Origin: a virus
Reading direction: 5' to 3' (one strand)
Virus record (IMG/VR): IMGVR_UViG_3300041405_000255
Location: 1 to 42,168 of that record
DNA: 42,168 bases
Position numbers and translations under genes: made by a program. Shown here in pieces: positions 6,997 through 20,749 of the stretch (position 1 is the first letter of the stretch; each line of letters starts with the position of its first letter). The notes under the pieces are model-generated. The model did not search any database and was not told where the DNA came from. It saw nothing but the letters and a program-made list of their open reading frames with translations.

Positions 6997-9066
6997 TTAT
7001 GCGGCTTCGTCTTGACGTTCAATACTGCGCCATGGGTCATTGGCCCTAGCCAGAGCTGCCATAGGCGGTGGGCTGACGCTGTTGCCGCACATGTGGACTT
7101 GCTGGGTCTTTGTGAATGGTTTGCCGTCGGCTCCATGGCCAATAATGTAGTCGGCGGGAAAGCCCTGGGCCTTGTACAGCTCGGCCGGTTGCAGCATCCG
7201 CAGGCAGATGTCGACGATCACGTAGGGCGTGCCCTTGATGGTGACGGTGACCAAGCCCAGTCGATCTTTGGTAGTGATCGTTGGCGCTGGTTCGTCGGCG
7301 CTACTCACGTTCTCGGTGCCGTAATAGCTGATCAGAAATGCCGCGACCCGCAGCGCGCCGGCTTCGACCTCTGGTGAAAGCTGAAACTCGACCAGTGAGC
7401 TTTTGCCGCCCCCGCCTGCCGTGATGGTGGGGGCGGGCTCATCCACGGACTGGCCAACGCTGGCGCCAAACTGGCGCTCCATGAAGGCGGTGACCAGTCC
7501 ATGATGCGTACCGCCGGCGCTGATAGTGTGCAGCGGATCGGCGGCGTCGCGGGCATCACAGTTGCCGCGCAGGTGCACCAGGTTGGCGGTCACCAGTTGT
7601 TGCTGGCTGCCGGTATTGGTCACAGTGGTCATCGGGTCACCGATGCTTTTGGCGTCGGTGGTGTTGAAGCCACCATTCATCTGCGCCATGAACATCGTTG
7701 AGATCCCCATCGCAAGGGCGGCGCCGGCCGGGCGCTGGTAGTTGCTGCCGCTGGTGATGGTCGGCAGCGGTTCGTCGAGGGTCTTGCCTTCGTCCGCAAA
7801 CCGGAACTTCACTAGATGTGCCGCGGCGACTGAGTGTCCGCCGCTGGCAGTCACCGTGCCGAGCGGGTCAGCGGCAGACTTGCTACCGTTGCCCCAGCGT
7901 TGGACGCCGCCGGGCTTCCCTTCGCCATGCGCGGCGGTGACCATCACTGGGCTGATGAGTGTCAGCTCGCCACGATTCGCGCAGGTAACCGTCGGCAGCG
8001 GGGCGTGCGGGTCGTTGATTCGGTCGCTGCCTTGGTGCGTCGCTGGCGCGATGATTGGGCTGGCCATGGCGAACGAGCCGCCGCGTGGCCAGGAGGTGAC
8101 GGTGCGCAGCGGCTCATGCGCTGACTGCACGCTGTCCCCGGACCAATTTGCGATCGGCACGATGAACGGGTCAGCTGCATCGATAACGAATTTCTTCATG
8201 CCCTTGGCGATCCGGCGCAGGGTGGCCGATGCAAGCGGTTTTGGCCGGTCGAAGATGCTTTTGCTCGGGATCGTCCAGTCGATGCACTCGGCGGCGGTGC
8301 GCCACTTCTTCTGACCCTTTTGCGGATTCTTGGCGTGGGTCGGCGCTGGCCACACAATCGGCTCGCCGTCGCACCGGGCGATCATGAACAGGCGTTCGCG
8401 GCTGGTCGGTGCACCGTAGTCGCAGGCCTTCAGCACTTGCCATTCAACGACGTAACCCATGTGCTGCAGCTCGGCAACGAACACGGCCCAGGTCTGCCCT
8501 CGGCGCTTCGGGTCCGGAACCAGAAACTGCTTATGTACCGGAACTACCTCACCAGGTGCAGCAACACCGCCGCCCAACTTCACGACGCGGCCAGTGGCTT
8601 TGCAGCGTTTGGCGATCAGCGGCCCCCACTGAAGGATCTGTTTCACGTTCTCCAGGCTGATGACGCGGGGCTTCTTCTTGCCAGCCCACTTCAGGCCGAT
8701 CCACGACAGGTTCCGAATCTCCCGCTTACGCGGCTGGCCACCGGCGGCTTGGCTGTGGTGCGTGCAGTCTGGCGACATGTGGAACCAGCCAACTGTCTTG
8801 CCGCCGCACTCGGTATCCGGATCACCGTCGAACACGTCGGTGGTGTAGTGCACGGCACCCGGGTGATTCACGGTGTGCATGCTGATCGCCTGAGGGCTGT
8901 GATTCTTCGCGACATTCACTGCGCGACCCAGGCCCATTTCCAACCCGGTACCGGCACCGCCGCCACCACAGAAGAAGTCGACCACGATTTCATCGTCCTG
9001 AGTGCTGAAGCCGAGTCCATATTGAGTTTTGAAATCGAAGGGGTGTTTCTTCTGTTGTCCGGACAT
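6997..9066 (-). CDS. DNA (cytosine-5) methyltransferase with repeat-built middle domain
   Basis: Phage C5-cytosine methyltransferase, 689 aa, expected to modify phage DNA against restriction. Motif I is VVDFFCGGGGAGTGLEMG (residues 28-45); the catalytic cysteine motif is the PDC variant at 99-101 (SPDCTHHS); ENV lies at 139-141; the RERLFMIARC segment at 223-232 matches motif VIII; GNSV of motif X is at 661-664. Between motifs VIII and IX, where the target-recognition domain belongs, an eight-residue element of the type DEPLPTIT recurs eight times (starts near 317, 354, 399, 431, 477, 509, 542, 591). ATG at 9066 has AAGGA 6 bases upstream. There is no restriction partner nearby, so it is an orphan enzyme. 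Target sequence unknown. Confidence 0.93.
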   Translation of the reverse strand: MSGQQKKHPFDFKTQYGLGFSTQDDEIVVDFFCGGGGAGTGLEMGLGRAVNVAKNHSPQAISMHTVNHPGAVHYTTDVFDGDPDTECGGKTVGWFHMSPDCTHHSQAAGGQPRKREIRNLSWIGLKWAGKKKPRVISLENVKQILQWGPLIAKRCKATGRVVKLGGGVAAPGEVVPVHKQFLVPDPKRRGQTWAVFVAELQHMGYVVEWQVLKACDYGAPTSRERLFMIARCDGEPIVWPAPTHAKNPQKGQKKWRTAAECIDWTIPSKSIFDRPKPLASATLRRIAKGMKKFVIDAADPFIVPIANWSGDSVQSAHEPLRTVTSWPRGGSFAMASPIIAPATHQGSDRINDPHAPLPTVTCANRGELTLISPVMVTAAHGEGKPGGVQRWGNGSKSAADPLGTVTASGGHSVAAAHLVKFRFADEGKTLDEPLPTITSGSNYQRPAGAALAMGISTMFMAQMNGGFNTTDAKSIGDPMTTVTNTGSQQQLVTANLVHLRGNCDARDAADPLHTISAGGTHHGLVTAFMERQFGASVGQSVDEPAPTITAGGGGKSSLVEFQLSPEVEAGALRVAAFLISYYGTENVSSADEPAPTITTKDRLGLVTVTIKGTPYVIVDICLRMLQPAELYKAQGFPADYIIGHGADGKPFTKTQQVHMCGNSVSPPPMAALARANDPWRSIERQDEAA

Positions 9067-11004: not shown

Positions 11005-11205
11005 TTAAGTGATCGCAGGTGTTGCCATCGAGGGCCTCGACAAACCCGCCTGAATGCGCTGCGTGATTTCTTCTCGATGCACCTGGACATCCTTTGGTGC
11101 GCTAGTTCCGATACGTACCTGTTTGCCGCTAACACCCAGCACCGTGATCGTGATGTTGTTGCCTATGTTGATGCTTTCGCCTTCTTTGCGAGTCAAAATC
11201 AGCAT
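11005..11205 (-). CDS. csrA: CsrA/RsmA-family RNA-binding translational regulator, phage-encoded
   Basis: 66 aa. [15 protein letters not shown] at the N-terminus, [20 protein letters not shown] in the middle and VHREEI (H43, R44) are the hallmarks of CsrA/RsmA, which as a homodimer binds GGA motifs in mRNA leaders and changes translation or stability. The key RNA-contact residues L4, R6 and R44 are kept; position 7 is K instead of R. The C-terminal tail differs from chromosomal RsmA. AAGGA lies 8 bases before the ATG. It is the third gene after the left early promoter, so it should be made on induction, or at low level in lysogens, and could interfere with the host Gac/Rsm network; that effect is inference. 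Confidence 0.95.
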
Positions 11206-11270: not shown

Positions 11271-11474
11271 TCACTGCATTACGCGGATTTCATTACGAGG
11301 AAACCACGCACCGTCAACCAGAACCATGCAGCCAACAAAGGCGGCGTAGCGGGTCTCTCGGTCAGTCTGGAAGCCGTAGTAGGAGCAAGTGGCCCGAGAG
11401 GCTACGTTGCTCAGCAACATGCAGCCGACGATCAGTGCCAGCAGGATCAGCAGAACCTTTGTCGCGTGCTTCAC
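11271..11474 (-). CDS. Small membrane-anchored or secreted protein
   Basis: 67 aa. Residues 5-22 (TKVLLILLALIVGCMLLS) form one hydrophobic segment, either a signal peptide or a membrane anchor; the cysteine at 18 within a lipobox-like IVGC makes lipoprotein processing conceivable. The rest is short, with two further cysteines. The start is GTG at 11474, overlapping the TGA of the TerB gene (GTGA), so it is translationally coupled. Function unknown. Confidence 0.7.
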   Translation of the reverse strand: MKHATKVLLILLALIVGCMLLSNVASRATCSYYGFQTDRETRYAAFVGCMVLVDGAWFPRNEIRVMQ

Positions 11475-11920
11475 GCCTCGATACCGTAGTCAGACAGGCG
11501 CAGACCGAAGTGCATGCCTATTTCCTTCAGCACCACCAACTCTGCTGGCTCGATCTGACCATCAGCCTGGGCAACGGCAAGAATGTTGACGAAAGCTTCC
11601 TCCGCGTCAGTTGGAACGTTTTTGATGTCGGCCAGTTCGCGCTTGATCGCCAATCGACCTACTTGGAAGTTGGCGTTCAACTGGCCTGTGAAGCGATTGA
11701 TGGTTTCGGTGATTTCGCTGCCGAAGTGCGTCAAATTGGGGTTGGAGCGAATCAGCTCATCCAGCTTGGAAACCTCGCTGGCTTCAATCTCACCATCAGC
11801 CGCAGCGACCAATAGGCCGCCACCGACAATGGCCTGCATCAAGTCGCGGTTAACGACCTTCTTCATTTCGGCCTGGGCATTGCCGACTTGTTTGCCGAAG
11901 AGTTTTTTCATTCCGAACAT
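11471..11920 (-). CDS. TerB-family protein
   Basis: 149 aa. Two helical repeats typical of TerB are visible: GGGLLVAAADGEIEASEV (about 33-50) and NILAVAQADGQIEPAELVVL (about 115-134), each with the acidic A-x-ADG-x-I-E metal-binding pattern. TerB-like proteins are linked to tellurite resistance, membrane stress and phage inhibition, but the mechanism is unclear. ATG at 11920 has GAGGA 6 bases upstream; an open frame continues to 12034 without good start signals. First gene of the left early operon, about 290 bases after the predicted transcription start. Confidence 0.85.
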   Translation of the reverse strand: MFGMKKLFGKQVGNAQAEMKKVVNRDLMQAIVGGGLLVAAADGEIEASEVSKLDELIRSNPNLTHFGSEITETINRFTGQLNANFQVGRLAIKRELADIKNVPTDAEEAFVNILAVAQADGQIEPAELVVLKEIGMHFGLRLSDYGIEA

Positions 11921-12160
11921 GGTGATTCCTCTGAGTGGGGTGACATCCCGCTGCACCCTGTCGCCAAGGTGCAGCAGCGATTCTGTGCGTCCTATTGCCG
12001 CCGGAGGGGCGGGGCGCATTGCTTGCCGGGTCATTCACACGGTTCTGGCGTTTCGCCATCGATCAGCCGTCCAGGTTGATCCTGTCGTGGGCAGGCTTTC
12101 GGGCCTGTCTGCTCGCCGGTCGCCGGTAGAGGCAATGCGGTTTGTTGTTTGTTGCGCTGA

Positions 12161-14257: not shown

Positions 14258-14998
14258 ATGCACAGCCACATTGTCTTGAGCAATACCTCCGATGTCGTGA
14301 CACGTTTCAGTGAATCGCAAAGCGTGTCATGTCACACCATGTCTTCACGCGAGATCGCCGAGCTGACTGGCAGCACGCACGACAACGTCCTGAAAACAGT
14401 CCGGGGGCTCGTTACCAAGGGTGTCGTTTCGTCAAACGACACCCCCTACGTCCACCCACAAAACGGTCAGATCTATCGCGAGTTCTTGCTATCTCAACGT
14501 GACACCCTGGTGGTGGTCTCGGGCTACAGCGTCGAACTGCGCGCGAAAATTATTGATCGCTGGCAGGAACTCGAAGCCCAGTTCAGTCAATTTCAGATCC
14601 CGGCGACCTACGCCGAAGCGTTGCAGGCAGCCGCTGACCAAGCAAGAGACAACCAGTCGCTGCGATTGGTCATTTTCGATCAGGCACCAAAAGTTGCCGC
14701 GATCAAACGTCTGGCGGCGGCCGGTGGAGCAATCTGCATCACCGACACTGCCAAACAGTTACAGATCCAGCCTGCGAGGTTGTTCGCCTGGCTTGAGCAG
14801 CATCGTTGGATTTTCCGCCGCAAGGGCTCCAAACGCTGGGTTGCCTATCAGCCACGCATTACCGCCGGCTACATGACTCACAAAGTCACAGCCCTGAGGC
14901 CTGATCCGGAAACCGGCATCGAGCGAGCTGCATTCGACCCAATGGTCACTCCGAAAGGCCTTACCCGTCTTGCTGAGCTTTTGCAGGAGGCCAAGTAA
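14258..14998 (+). CDS. Rha-family antirepressor with KilAC-like C-terminus
   Basis: 246 aa. Residues about 28-115 form the Rha domain (MSSREIAELTGSTHDNVLKTVR, YREFLLSQRDTLVVVSGYS, RAKIIDRWQELE). The C-terminal part (about 150-240; DTAKQLQIQPARLFAWLEQHRWIFRR in pieces) is the phage antirepressor KilAC/ANT winged helix. Proteins of this design counter the repressor or interfere with host regulation. ATG at 14258 follows an AGAG purine run. The stop overlaps the next start (TAATG). Confidence 0.88.
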   Translation: MHSHIVLSNTSDVVTRFSESQSVSCHTMSSREIAELTGSTHDNVLKTVRGLVTKGVVSSNDTPYVHPQNGQIYREFLLSQRDTLVVVSGYSVELRAKIIDRWQELEAQFSQFQIPATYAEALQAAADQARDNQSLRLVIFDQAPKVAAIKRLAAAGGAICITDTAKQLQIQPARLFAWLEQHRWIFRRKGSKRWVAYQPRITAGYMTHKVTALRPDPETGIERAAFDPMVTPKGLTRLAELLQEAK

Positions 14999-15744
14999 TG
15001 GCCGGCGATTGGATCAAATTCGAACTCACCACCTTGGACAAGCCTGAGGTCTGCCAGATTGCTGACTTAGCCGACATCGACCCGGATGCGGTAGTGGGCA
15101 AATTGATGCGTGTATGGGGTTGGTTCGACCAGCAGACGGAAAACGGTAACGCTCCGAGCGTTAGCAAAAAGTTACTCGATCGGTTAGTGGGCGTTATCGG
15201 TTTTTGCGAACACATGAAGACGGTGGCATGGATGCATGAAGTAGATGGCGTTATCAGCCTGCCGCATTTCGAGCGTCACAACGGGAAAACCGCCAAAAAC
15301 CGGCTTCTCACAGCCAAAAGGGTAGCCAACCACAAAGCAGCTAACGCCAAAGGTAACGCTCCAAGCGTTAGCAATGCGTTACCTAAAGAAGATTTAGAGA
15401 AGAATAAAGATCAACACAACACTCTGGGCGCGAGTGATCGTTCGGCGGCAGTTGAGATGTCGCTTGAATGGGTACCTGATCAACAGCTCTTGCAGGCTTA
15501 CGCGCTACGGATGGCCCTACCGTTGACCGCGTTCACCCCGGAGGCCACGGCTGCTTTCGTTTGCCATTACACCGCAAGTGGTCGTTTCGAGACGCAAGCA
15601 GCCTGGGTCAGTCTGCTCGTGAAGTGGATCAAGCGCGATGTTGCCAAAACGGCCAGTTCCAACATTCGGCAATTTCCCGTGAAGCAGGTCAACGGCCCGG
15701 ATTTCGACGACACGACCTGGTCTGATGATCTGGGTGACTTGTGA
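14998..15744 (+). CDS. DnaT-like/O-like replication initiation protein
   Basis: 248 aa. The N-terminal 100 residues (WIKFELTTLDKPEVCQIADL, MRVWGWFDQQ) look like a winged-helix DNA-binding domain. The C-terminal part (EWVPDQQLLQAYALRMALPL, then AFVCHYTASGRFETQAAWVS, about 155-212) matches the DnaT primosomal domain that delivers the DnaB-loading complex. Between them is a low-complexity linker whose coding DNA contains repeated GCGTTA elements, so the gene seems to carry the origin it acts on, as lambda O does. AGGAGG precedes the ATG; TAATG overlap with rha and GTGATG overlap with the next gene. Confidence 0.82.
   Translation: MAGDWIKFELTTLDKPEVCQIADLADIDPDAVVGKLMRVWGWFDQQTENGNAPSVSKKLLDRLVGVIGFCEHMKTVAWMHEVDGVISLPHFERHNGKTAKNRLLTAKRVANHKAANAKGNAPSVSNALPKEDLEKNKDQHNTLGASDRSAAVEMSLEWVPDQQLLQAYALRMALPLTAFTPEATAAFVCHYTASGRFETQAAWVSLLVKWIKRDVAKTASSNIRQFPVKQVNGPDFDDTTWSDDLGDL
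15145..15420. other. Candidate phage replication origin (iterons plus AT-rich stretch)
   Basis: Within the O/DnaT-like gene, TAACGC or its complement GCGTTA occurs eight times (starts 15147, 15158, 15191, 15248, 15342, 15354, 15365, 15376). Two 23-bp copies, 15145-15167 and 15352-15374, differ at one base and each contains the inverted repeat AACGCT-N3-AGCGTT. The last four elements are 11-12 bp apart, one helical turn, and are followed by an AT-rich run at 15382-15420. This is the arrangement of lambda ori inside gene O. Confidence 0.6.
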
Positions 15745-16565
15745 TGAGCCAAGCCAAACGTGTCCCCCAGAGCGCCAACCAGTTGCTGAGCAAGATGGGC
15801 AACCTGCCGCCCGTGACGTTGGAGCGACCGAAACAATTGCCGCCTGGTACCGCTGACGTCGTTAACGCGCTGTTCAAGGAATTGCAGGCGATCTTCCCCG
15901 CGTGGAAGCAAGCATGGCCCGATGATGAAGCCCTACGCGCTGCAAAACGCAGCTGGGTCAAGGCTTTCATCGCCGCCGGGATCAATACTCTCGAGCAAAT
16001 TAGGTACGGCTTGCAGAACTGCCGACAGCACGGCGGCGATTTCGCGCCGAGCGTCGGCAAGTTTGTGAAGTGGTGTCAGCCAACGCCTGAAATGTTGGGC
16101 ATTCCTTCGCACGATAAGGCCTTTCGTGAAGCGCTGGTCAATTTGGACCCGAGCCGAGCATTTTCCCGCGAGTGGTCGCACCCGGCGGTACGTCATGCCG
16201 CCCTTCAATGCGAGATGCATAACCTGAACAGCTTAGTGTCCGAGAAGGCCAGCAAGGTCTTTGATCGCGCCTATGACATCACCATCCGGATGTTGGTCAG
16301 CGGACAGCCGCTCGAAGACATCGCCATTGGCATCAGCCACGACTCGCAAAAGCCCGAAACGCAACTCGCGGAAGAATACGGCGAGGCGCGGTTGTTGATA
16401 ACCATGTCGCGCCAGTCGATCCCGCTTGACGGCAAGGTCGCCCGCGTCCAGTTGCTGGCTCGTTTTGCCAGTGACCCGGGAAAACGCGAGCAGCAAAAAA
16501 ACTCGCTTCCACGTACCCGCTTGAACTCCCTCCCTGATCCATTCAATCCCACAGGTGGCTTCTGA
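15744..16565 (+). CDS. Replication protein P-like helicase loader
   Basis: 273 aa. The sequence resembles the lambda P family: an N-terminal segment ending in VVNALFKELQAIFPAWKQAWP, a conserved WVKAFIAAGINTLEQIRYGL, then GDFAPSVGKFVKWCQPTPE and a charged C-terminus. P proteins capture host DnaB helicase and bring it to the origin protein. The ATG at 15744 overlaps the previous stop (TGATG); a GTG three bases earlier is in the same frame. Directly downstream of the O-like gene, as in lambda. Confidence 0.8.
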   Translation: MSQAKRVPQSANQLLSKMGNLPPVTLERPKQLPPGTADVVNALFKELQAIFPAWKQAWPDDEALRAAKRSWVKAFIAAGINTLEQIRYGLQNCRQHGGDFAPSVGKFVKWCQPTPEMLGIPSHDKAFREALVNLDPSRAFSREWSHPAVRHAALQCEMHNLNSLVSEKASKVFDRAYDITIRMLVSGQPLEDIAIGISHDSQKPETQLAEEYGEARLLITMSRQSIPLDGKVARVQLLARFASDPGKREQQKNSLPRTRLNSLPDPFNPTGGF

Positions 16566-17065: not shown

Positions 17066-17304
17066 TGGGCAAGCGCATGGCGATCGGGTTGGATATACCT
17101 GATCGCCGCCTGGCTGTGCCGAACCCGGCGAACTATCGGTTCGCCGTATTCTGCTGTTCGTTCAAGATGGATATGGGCAGCACACCCGACCACGCTTTGG
17201 CGCTGTTCGTTGACCAGGCAATGGCCGAGCGCTACGGCGCCTGGATGTGGCCGACCACGTTTCAGGTCGTTGACCTGGAAGATCCTCTTGGAGCCCGTAA
17301 ATGA
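17065..17304 (+). CDS. Small hypothetical phage protein
   Basis: 79 aa, not recognised; contains RFAVFCCSFKMDMGSTPDHA and a tryptophan-rich WMWPTTFQVVDLED. Both ends overlap neighbouring genes (TAATG at the start, ATGA at the end), supporting a real translated gene in the operon. Confidence 0.65.
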   Translation: MGKRMAIGLDIPDRRLAVPNPANYRFAVFCCSFKMDMGSTPDHALALFVDQAMAERYGAWMWPTTFQVVDLEDPLGARK

Positions 17305-18629
17305 TGGCCTTGGCGAAGACCCTGACGGTAAAGCTGTCGGATGCCGAGATCGAACGCAATGCCAAGAAGCTGCATGTCCGAGATCTACGAGATGCCAGTC
17401 ACCCGGCATTGCACTTTCGCTTTGCAAAGAATCGATCCCGCGGCTCCTGGTACCTCCTCAGCAAACGCACCTGGCACCGCATCGGCGGCTTCCCTGATTT
17501 GAGCACCAAACAAGTGGTCACGGCATTGCCCTCGGTGCGTCTGCGGGTGGCCGCCAATGAAGGTTCGACGCTATCTAAGTGGGCCGCCACCGGCGAACTG
17601 TTGGAATGGTACGCCGAGCGTATGGCACGTGATCGCAGCCTTTCCAGCAAGCGCAAGAACACCACTGCCTCGGCCATCAGGCGTCATTTGATGCCACGCT
17701 TGGGTCATCTGCCGCTCAGCGATATCAACAAAGCCACACTCGACAGAGAGCTGGTCTGGCCGTTGCAGGAAAGCTACTCCACTGGCTATGTGCAGCTGGT
17801 GTTCAAGCTTCTCGTCCAGGCGCTGCAGCAAGCGTTCAAACTCGGTTGTATCGGCGCTAACCCTATGGCTGGGATCAAGTTCAGCGACTTCAGTAAGGCC
17901 AAGGTCGGGGCCAAGCCATGCCGATTGCGCGGCGTTCAGTTGCCGCAGCTACTGGAGCAATTGTTCCTCGTCATGTCGACTGCCCCTGCCGACGCCATGT
18001 TGGCGCTGATGATGCTCTGTCACGGCACGCGTATCGGTGAAACCCGGCAGACACGCTGGTCGCATATCAGTCTGACGGAGCGCGAGTGGTTTATCCCGGC
18101 CGAGCACACCAAAACCGGCGTCGAGCATCACCTGCCGCTGACGGACCAGGTGCGCGAGCTGCTGATTCGCTATCGCGACATTCAACAAACCAAGGGGTAT
18201 GACGGCCAATTCCTGTTCCCGGCGCGCCATGGCAAGGCTCTCAGTGAAGGGCAGGCCAGTGCTGCATTCACCCGGTTGGGGCAAGGTGAGTGGACCAGCC
18301 ACGACCTGCGCAAGTTGGCCCGCACCGGCTGGGCTGACCTCGGCATTGATCACCTGATCGGCGAACTACTGATCAACCACGCCATGGGCCACAACGTGAA
18401 GGTGTACATCCAGTCGAACGTCATGAGTCGCAAGCTCGATGCACTGGAGCAGTGGCACGCTCATCTAGACCAGAAGGGGTTTTCCCTGATTCACGGGTTG
18501 ACCGGTGTTAGATCCGGAGATTCCGGTAAACCTCTGGAGGCCTTACAGAACAAGGCCTGCGATGCCTTTCAAGAAACAACCACAGGAGAGGATTTAAAAC
18601 ATGCAGAAAGGGCAGGGGCTTGGCTTTAA
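17301..18629 (+). CDS. Second tyrosine recombinase in the replication operon
   Basis: 442 aa. Catalytic residues are visible: R244 (HGTRIGETR), K271 (HTKTGVEHHLPL), H334 and R337 (SHDLRKLARTGW), H360 (INHAMGH) and Y369 (KVYIQSN); core-binding domain about 90-190. Unlike the attL-proximal enzyme, it lacks an att site next to it and is buried in a polycistronic early operon, with ATG at 17301 overlapping the previous stop (a second in-frame ATG is at 17304). Its C-terminus extends about 70 residues past the tyrosine and its end overlaps the zinc-ribbon gene. Possible roles: multimer or concatemer resolution, DNA inversion, or remnant of another integrated element. Confidence 0.9.
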   Translation: MMALAKTLTVKLSDAEIERNAKKLHVRDLRDASHPALHFRFAKNRSRGSWYLLSKRTWHRIGGFPDLSTKQVVTALPSVRLRVAANEGSTLSKWAATGELLEWYAERMARDRSLSSKRKNTTASAIRRHLMPRLGHLPLSDINKATLDRELVWPLQESYSTGYVQLVFKLLVQALQQAFKLGCIGANPMAGIKFSDFSKAKVGAKPCRLRGVQLPQLLEQLFLVMSTAPADAMLALMMLCHGTRIGETRQTRWSHISLTEREWFIPAEHTKTGVEHHLPLTDQVRELLIRYRDIQQTKGYDGQFLFPARHGKALSEGQASAAFTRLGQGEWTSHDLRKLARTGWADLGIDHLIGELLINHAMGHNVKVYIQSNVMSRKLDALEQWHAHLDQKGFSLIHGLTGVRSGDSGKPLEALQNKACDAFQETTTGEDLKHAERAGAWL

Positions 18630-19669: not shown

Positions 19670-19996
19670 TTACAGATCCAGCAAATCACGATGAATTCCG
19701 AATGCTTGGGCAATCTTGTCGAGGGTGCCCTTGCGTGGTTTTGCTGCTTGCTCTTGTTGTGCGTATGCCGCCTGGGTAATGCCGATGCGCGAGGCCACTT
19801 CCGCCTGAGTAAGGTTCAGATGCTTGCGCCATGCGCCGACAGCGGTCAGGTCCTCTTTGACCATGTATCCAACCACCTCATTCGGAATCAAGTCCTCTTG
19901 CGGGTGGTTTGCAACATAGTCCGCGTAGGGGATGACGACAAAGGCGGGCGCTCCGTCTGGCCCGCTGATGATCTGAATGTTAGTAGGTGTGTTCAT
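19670..19996 (-). CDS. XRE-type antitoxin
   Basis: 108 aa. The C-terminal half is an XRE helix-turn-helix (WRKHLNLTQAEVASRIGITQ, about 56-75, then AQAFGIHRDLLDL). The N-terminal half (FVVIPYADYVANHP) is the toxin-binding part by analogy with HigA/RelB-like antitoxins. Its ATG lies 17 bases inside the end of the toxin gene. The antitoxin normally neutralises the toxin and represses the shared promoter. Confidence 0.88.
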   Translation of the reverse strand: MNTPTNIQIISGPDGAPAFVVIPYADYVANHPQEDLIPNEVVGYMVKEDLTAVGAWRKHLNLTQAEVASRIGITQAAYAQQEQAAKPRKGTLDKIAQAFGIHRDLLDL

Positions 19997-20234
19997 CGCG
20001 CTTTTTCACCTCTTCAATGTTTACGATCTTGACCCCTCCATCCCAGTCAAACATGACTCGGTAGTTTCCCACCCTGAGCCGGTACCCATACTGGTGTTTA
20101 ACGAGGGCTTTGACGTTGGTGACGTTGGGCATATGAGCGAGCGCCTGTGCCGCGTCATAAATCTTGCCTTTGTCGTCTTTATTAATCTTGGAGAGCTGTT
20201 TTACGGCTTTCCGGGTCCAGTTGATTGTATTCAT
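19980..20234 (-). CDS. RelE/ParE-family toxin
   Basis: 84 aa. Starts MNTINWTRKAVKQLSKINKD and contains ALVKHQYGYRLRVGNYRVMF and IVNIEEVKKRDEHTY, the typical RelE/ParE fold with the basic RLRVGNYRV strand and an R-x-x-x-Y C-terminus. RelE relatives cleave ribosome-bound mRNA; ParE relatives act on gyrase; the sequence alone does not settle which. GAGG precedes the ATG at 20234. Toxin-first order with overlapping antitoxin, as in higBA. It is read opposite to the surrounding lytic genes, so it is probably expressed in the lysogen. Confidence 0.88.
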   Translation of the reverse strand: MNTINWTRKAVKQLSKINKDDKGKIYDAAQALAHMPNVTNVKALVKHQYGYRLRVGNYRVMFDWDGGVKIVNIEEVKKRDEHTY

Positions 20235-20257
20235 GCTGCCTCGCAATCCATGACGAA

Positions 20258-20286
20258 AATATAAGTCATTTAATAAGTATTGTCGA
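20258..20286 (-). promoter_or_regulatory. Toxin-antitoxin promoter
   Basis: Minus strand TCGACA (20286-20281), 17-base spacer, TATATT (20263-20258), located 24 bases before the toxin ATG. The spacer is AT-rich. Confidence 0.7.
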
Positions 20287-20361
20287 GGGATTTGTTGGGT
20301 AATGCTTATTGGATTTGTTTTCGAACTGGCCGCTGCGCAATGGTCAGAAGCCAATTTATCG

Positions 20362-20386
20362 CCCCACCACGGTGCGGTTTTTTTTT
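20362..20386 (+). terminator. Terminator before the late genes (tR'-like)
   Basis: Imperfect GC-rich hairpin (20362-20377; CACC/GGTG inner stem, flanking CC/GG) followed by nine T. It lies 43 bases before the holin gene and after the early operon, where lambdoid late transcripts stop unless a Q protein is present. Confidence 0.65.
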
Positions 20387-20428
20387 GATTTTCTTCCGAG
20401 CCTCGGGAGGCAACAGAGACCTCTGAAT

Positions 20429-20749
20429 ATGCCGGATAAACCCGATACCTGGGCCATTGCATTCATGTGGCTGAGTCAGCATTCGCAAACTATTTGGGCG
20501 GCATTTTTGTCGTTGTGTATGACCGTGTTGCGTGTGTTCTACACGGGCGGCACTTGGAAAGACGCGCTGATTGAAGGTCCCATGTGTGTCTTGCTATCCC
20601 TGAGCATTATCTGGGGCTTCGAGCTGATGGGATTGTCGCCGTCACTAGCCCAGCCGGTAGGCATTTGGGTGGGCTTCCTCGGGGTGAAGAAAGTCGCCCT
20701 TTGGGCTGATCGAATTGCTGAAAGCAGGTTTCCCAAATCGGATTGCTAA
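20429..20749 (+). CDS. Holin, lambda-type (phage_holin_3 family)
   Basis: 106 aa. MPDKPDTWAIAFMWLSQHSQ opens the protein, then three membrane segments at about residues 22-42, 50-70 and 77-92, with a short charged C-terminus, the design of class I lambda-type holins that open the inner membrane for the endolysin. A longer frame from 20309 exists, but the family N-terminus begins at 20429. The ribosome site is weak and partly in a small hairpin (CAGAG/CTCTG), which could limit expression. No endolysin lies beside it. Confidence 0.88.
   Translation: MPDKPDTWAIAFMWLSQHSQTIWAAFLSLCMTVLRVFYTGGTWKDALIEGPMCVLLSLSIIWGFELMGLSPSLAQPVGIWVGFLGVKKVALWADRIAESRFPKSDC

Follow-up and report, generated by a model that had tools for sequence, protein, structure and literature searches.

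Why should a phage replication gene carry the same six-letter DNA word again and again within its coding sequence, and what reads it? The question is raised by a stretch of viral DNA of 42,168 nucleotides (IMG/VR record IMGVR_UViG_3300041405_000255, hereafter the window), in which copies of GCGTTA and its complement TAACGC crowd into the gene of a putative replication initiator.

An iteron array within the initiator gene

The features concerned are as follows.

14998 to 15744 (+): replication initiation gene (PHROG 2509, Pfam DnaT), 248 aa, with an N-terminal MAGDWIK domain, a linker and a C-terminal DnaT domain
15147 to 15152 (-): iteron 1, cluster 1, shared by 236 of 288 genes (gene nt 150)
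15158 to 15163 (+): iteron 2, cluster 1, forming a palindrome with iteron 1 (172 of 288 genes)
15171 to 15175 (+): degenerate GTTAC element lying between iterons 2 and 3, in 11-bp phase, including the TTA codon of Leu59
15191 to 15196 (+): iteron 3, cluster 1 (135 of 288 genes), including the GTT codon of Val66
15248 to 15253 (+): a rarely shared, possibly incidental GCGTTA copy (15 of 288 genes)
15342 to 15347 (-): iteron 4, cluster 2, a GCGTTA/TAACGC site
15354 to 15359 (-): iteron 5, cluster 2, likewise
15365 to 15370 (+): iteron 6, cluster 2, likewise, forming a palindrome with iteron 5
15376 to 15381 (+): iteron 7, cluster 2, likewise, adjoining the A-rich tract
15380 to 15425 (+): A-rich and purine-rich tract, proposed unwinding element, 70% A+T, with purine and AGA bias in relatives

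The original prediction described this array correctly. Eight GCGTTA/TAACGC elements do lie within 235 bp (15147–15381), all inside the gene; two nearly identical 23-bp copies, GGTAACGCTCC[G/A]AGCGTTAGCAA, begin at 15145 and 15352, each containing the inverted repeat TAACGCT-N3-AGCGTTA and encoding the duplicated peptide GNAPSVS; the last four elements follow one another at 12, 11 and 11 bp; and the run behind them is indeed AT-rich, at 70% A+T, where the gene has 47% and the window 41.5%. The 23-bp repeat can be extended to 34 bp at 85% identity. An additional GTTAC core at 15171–15175 (AAAAAGTTAC) had been overlooked; its Leu59 codon is kept as TTA in 83 of the 90 relatives that have leucine at this position.

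Over the whole window the word occurs 17 times against 13 expected by chance, and it is therefore only the clustering that is unusual. Among all hexamers of the window, GCGTTA reaches the highest count in any 235-bp span, namely eight; the runners-up reach six and are GC-rich words present in 90–97 copies. When the codons of the gene were shuffled 5,000 times with the protein preserved, the mean was 1.9 copies and the maximum six, so that eight was never reached. The GC skew of the window was uninformative, showing no turning point at the repeat site.

The repeats recur in relatives

Homologues were gathered by protein similarity to the initiator and to its N-terminal domain, not by the repeats, from a genome scan, virus scans and a search of phage records, which gave 567 loci and 415 distinct genes. 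For the first 176 distinct N-terminal domains, the density of GCGTTA was 7.1 per kb within the gene and 0.45 per kb in the flanking DNA. The original prediction had named two findings that would speak against it, an equal frequency of the word elsewhere in the phage and homologous genes that are devoid of repeats yet replicate normally. As far as the sequences tell, neither was found, since the word is concentrated in the gene and almost every homologue keeps spaced repeats. A set of 14 distinct N-terminal domains at first taken for relatives without repeats, on the count of GCGTTA, was dropped as such, nearly all of them carrying another spelling of the iteron.

A search independent of any motif, for hexamers repeated at 10–13 or 21–24 bp, found at least two spaced pairs in 395 of the 415 genes, compared with 24 of 415 after codon shuffling; three genes remain weak in repeats at the final cut. 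Spacing is strictly phased: among 134 representatives, 523 of 524 neighbour spacings of 40 bp or less equal 11–12, 22–24 or 33–35 bp. The repeats form two clusters, or one in a single branch, that of the MRxNLWDDPR type, which lacks cluster 1; two clusters are therefore not always needed. The first cluster occupies about nt 54–102 of epsilon15-type genes and nt 149–196 of genes of the window type, so that the peptides encoded there are not homologous and the DNA layout alone is shared. Judged from these sequences, hundreds of related phages have this layout in common.

Conservation acts on the DNA

The suggestion that selection acts on the DNA rather than on the protein holds up well: protein-preserving shuffles lose the repeats, and synonymous sites are frozen. 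At four-fold degenerate sites of the 134 representatives, the mean entropy is 0.59 inside iterons and 1.61 outside (p=9e-4), and individual codons hardly vary (Gly50 is GGT in 98 of 98 genes, Val55 is GTT in 97 of 98 and Val66 is GTT in 93 of 94). Moreover, iterons occur in all three reading phases, where they encode NA, SV/GV, AL or VT.

These data bear directly on the idea that the repeats merely reflect a duplicated NAPSVS motif, retained for the sake of the protein. The peptide is duplicated in the window, and the peptides of the first cluster are conserved in close relatives, as such an explanation would have it. Yet codon shuffles that leave the protein intact remove the repeats, synonymous positions are fixed, a single DNA word is read in three phases, and in other branches of the family the first cluster falls elsewhere in the protein. 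The explanation was rejected on the shuffles and the reading phases, and we regard it as extremely improbable.

The repeats travel with the N-terminal domain

Two further features are needed here.

14998 to 15345 (+): codons of the N-terminal domain (residues 1–116), proposed to bind iterons on the basis of an AlphaFold2 model and of co-occurrence with the repeats
15741 to 16565 (+): lambda P-like helicase loader gene (Pfam Phage_lambda_P, E=1.2e-34; PHROG 109)

The initiator belongs to the PHROG 2509 replication initiation family (E=6.6e-73, residues 1–245), and its residues 153–221 match Pfam DnaT (PF17948, E=8.5e-12). The likeness to DnaT is confined to this one domain, the full DnaT model scoring 21 against a cut-off of 201. 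A Pfam scan of the initiator returned the DnaT domain alone, with no match to Phage_rep_O, and the N-terminal domain had no Pfam match in the window protein or in the sampled relatives. AlphaFold2 predicts this domain with a pLDDT of 87.5 as a helical fold with a two-stranded hairpin and a long last helix. A sequence search of the PDB with the domain gave no match; Foldseek found only weak PDB matches, to regulators of the MarR/CRP type (best E 0.14), and six matches in BFVD at E<=0.001, including a 'replisome organizer' and a 'primosomal protein 1'.

Which part of the protein goes with the iterons can be read from relatives in which the parts have been exchanged. The C-terminal part of 24 sampled relatives matched DnaT in nine cases and Phg_2220_C in two, with nothing convincing in the rest. 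The loader encoded downstream is P in the window and in Pseudomonas phage VW-6S, DnaC-like in Rac (ydaV), PAN70, phiPSA1 and Cobetia Carin1, and unannotated in epsilon15 and SPN1S. The iterons stay while C-terminal domains and loaders vary. Conversely, two proteins with a DnaT C terminus behind other N-terminal domains (L030 and L366) have no GCGTTA array. Because iterons persist in relatives with no recognizable DnaT domain and are missing from these two DnaT proteins, the DnaT domain was rejected as the iteron reader. On this pattern of co-occurrence, the repeats travel with the N-terminal MAGDWIK domain and not with the DnaT domain. Of the original proposal, a lambda-ori-like origin with a DnaT-type initiator, the iteron origin inside the initiator gene is thus strongly supported, whereas the repeats are linked not to the DnaT domain but to the N-terminal one. 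The distinction separates the presumptive origin-reading part of an initiator usually annotated as 'hypothetical' or 'primosomal protein I' from its interchangeable helicase-recruiting part.

Iteron spelling covaries with one face of a helix

One segment of the N-terminal domain deserves closer attention.

15292 to 15354 (+): codons of the terminal helix (residues 99–119), proposed recognition helix, in which N101, T105, V109 and H112 covary with iteron spelling

At least five spellings of the iteron occur among relatives: where GCGTTA is absent, the same arrangement is built from GCGTGAC, GCGTCAC, TGTCACA or GCGGACA. Of the 337 genes of the window (FE) and epsilon15 types that have two clusters, 336 spell the iteron identically in both; in the remaining one, L035, GTGAC is paired with GTCAC, its reverse complement. 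When GTTAC proteins are compared with GGAC proteins, the normalized mutual information between residue and spelling is 0.98, 1.0, 1.0 and 0.70 at positions 101, 105, 109 and 112, compared with 0.16–0.30 at positions 103, 106, 107, 110 and 111. Similar values are obtained inside the single body subfamily MRxNLWDDPR (0.96, 1.0, 1.0 and 0.85 versus 0.11–0.31). Position 104 is intermediate (0.44–0.73), and position 115, at 0.61–0.66, is partly encoded by the iterons themselves. Residues 101, 105, 109 and 112 constitute one face of the predicted helix.

On a tree of the domain body from which the helix was left out, the spelling changes 11 times, and at least three of these changes fall on well-supported branches. 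In none of 68 proteins are helix type and spelling discordant. A sign test of the spelling switches was not significant on the well-supported branches alone, where such switches are few. Since the helix is encoded right beside cluster 2, helix and iterons can be passed on together, and exchange of a single stretch of DNA could account for part of the covariation. Hitch-hiking alone is nevertheless unlikely, given that the covarying residues share one face and that the first cluster, which lies farther away, agrees in spelling. Helix 99–119, as modelled, is probably the recognition helix. We further consider it reasonably probable, if well short of certain, that MAGDWIK is a widespread iteron-binding domain in which residues 101, 105, 109 and 112 set the spelling (T105 and V109 for GTTAC; D or E105 and K109 for GGAC), and that helix and iterons form an exchangeable specificity cassette, whose swapping between phages is tied neither to the domain body nor to the helicase adaptor at the C terminus.

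The sites might alternatively bind a host protein, such as a DnaA- or IHF-like factor, instead of the initiator, and it is general knowledge that iteron origins often use host factors as well. The spelling, however, changes with the helix of the phage protein. Examples from Pseudomonas, Yersinia and Escherichia (L001–L021, L033, L355 and L356) share GCGTTAC, whereas the enteric phages epsilon15/SPN1S and TL-2011b differ in theirs. We therefore judge binding by a host protein in place of the initiator to be very unlikely. Since the spelling switches with four helix residues, the specificity of initiator for origin is directly testable with natural protein pairs, and the switch suggests how co-resident prophages might avoid firing each other's origins.

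A few loci depart from this scheme. L560 has T105 and V109 with mixed GTCAC/GTTAC sites, and L339 and its close relatives have G105 and Q109 with GTTAC, both at odds with a simple helix code. In L031 (4001–4717) the iterons read GCGTGAC, yet the degenerate element of cluster 1, AAAAAGTTAC, stays GTTAC, and another role for this site is therefore possible.

A purine-rich tract follows cluster 2

In relatives of every iteron type, the tract behind cluster 2 consists of 71–84% purine and 40–57% A. Arginine is encoded by AGA in 89% of 334 arginine codons of the tract versus 8% of 2,973 elsewhere in the same genes. In many relatives the tract has a 5-bp period, (AGAGA)n, which may be a distinct element for single-strand binding or unwinding. 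The periodic form is found whatever the spelling at gene nt ~370–440 (L023, L029, L118, L278, L349, L357 and L358), where it encodes EEKRREEK with AGA arginines; a weaker form of it is present in the window at 15381–15417.

A probable replication origin

The repeats, their conservation at the DNA level, their link to the N-terminal domain and their covariation with one helix face are seen directly. Because phased repeats lie in the gene, with a purine tract adjoining them and a P-like loader gene next door, we assign a probability of roughly 0.87 to the reading that the segment is a phage replication origin inside its own initiator gene, whose N-terminal domain would bind the iterons, open the tract and have DnaB loaded. 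For binding, opening and loading, we infer a mechanism by analogy with lambda O and P (PMC7466680). The N-terminal domain would recognize a 7–8 bp iteron, GCGTTAC(C), with paired molecules probably occupying the TAACGCT-N3-AGCGTTA palindromes and the neighbouring sites one helical turn apart. The two clusters, separated by ~200 bp, would be assembled into a single nucleoprotein complex capable of opening the A- and purine-rich tract beside cluster 2. Single-stranded DNA would next be bound by the DnaT-like C-terminal domain, which would also recruit the lambda P-like loader with the host helicase DnaB. Specificity would reside in the four covarying residues of the terminal helix.

An autoregulatory role is also conceivable for intragenic repeats with short palindromes, and the initiator gene stands within an operon-like run of genes; the array might thus be a set of operators through which the initiator or another regulator represses this gene, with the origin elsewhere. 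Against this, the sites span ~150 to 385 nt inside the gene and are followed, before the helicase loader gene, by the A- and purine-rich tract, as in lambda ori, and no hexamer array elsewhere in the phage is so densely clustered. We consider operators in place of an origin unlikely, while autoregulation in addition to the origin role is possible.

Comparison with known origins

Origins with iterons inside a gene are already known from lambda. Like lambda ori in gene O, including its variants with four and six iterons in Stx phages (PMC7466680), the array here lies within the initiator gene, beside an AT-rich tract and upstream of a P-like loader gene, and lambda O is similarly modular, with a DNA-binding N-terminal and a helicase-recruiting C-terminal part. 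On the other hand, the initiator here is not an O protein by the Phage_rep_O model. Lambda has four 19-bp iterons that are imperfect inverted repeats, whereas the sites described here are half-sites of 7–8 bp in mixed orientation, 11–12 bp apart, with a 17-bp palindrome formed by opposed pairs only. Unlike in lambda, most of them fall into two clusters ~200 bp apart, and the tract is purine- and A-rich, with the 5-bp period in many relatives.

The Rac prophage offers a closer parallel. Its YdaU has the same N-terminal domain, and ydaU carries seven GCGTTA in the same layout, although the C-terminal part differs and the loader is the DnaC-like ydaV instead of P. Rac is reported to have an origin, oriJ, that is active (PMC3945230), which together with the seven GCGTTA in ydaU fits the origin reading; the accessible papers did not say where oriJ lies with respect to ydaU. 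The initiation proteins of epsilon15, SPN1S and phiPSA1 share the N-domain family and the two-cluster layout and differ in having GCGGACA, the more upstream first cluster, and D105 with K109 in the helix. Origins of Gram-negative PICIs (PMC6092414) likewise combine two iteron sets with an AT-rich region, but lie 3' of rep with the AT-rich region between the sets, whereas here both sets are in the gene and the tract comes after the second.

In the accessible papers surveyed on iterons with YdaU, DnaT, oriJ or epsilon15, we found no account of this origin. What is new is a putative lambda-ori-like origin whose initiator family is distinct from O and has Rac YdaU and epsilon15 among its members, together with multiple iteron spellings that agree between clusters and, in the sequences compared, follow residues 101, 105, 109 and 112. 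Sequence comparison thereby places a probable origin in a very large set of temperate phages and prophages of Pseudomonas, Xanthomonas, Escherichia, Salmonella, Klebsiella, Vibrio and other hosts.

Other genes of the window

Several further genes of the window are worth recording.

6997 to 9066 (-): large C-5 cytosine DNA methylase gene
11005 to 11205 (-): phage-encoded homologue of CsrA, a global RNA-binding regulator (Pfam CsrA, E=7e-24)
11471 to 12034 (-): TerB-domain protein of the early region (E=6e-10)
17301 to 18629 (+): integrase
19670 to 20462 (-): probable toxin–antitoxin pair, an HTH_3 protein and a ParE-type toxin

As in phage VW-6S, the integrase is encoded downstream of the replication genes and not beside the repressor. 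C-5 methylase genes adjoin the initiator gene in epsilon15 and in Vibrio phage L359.
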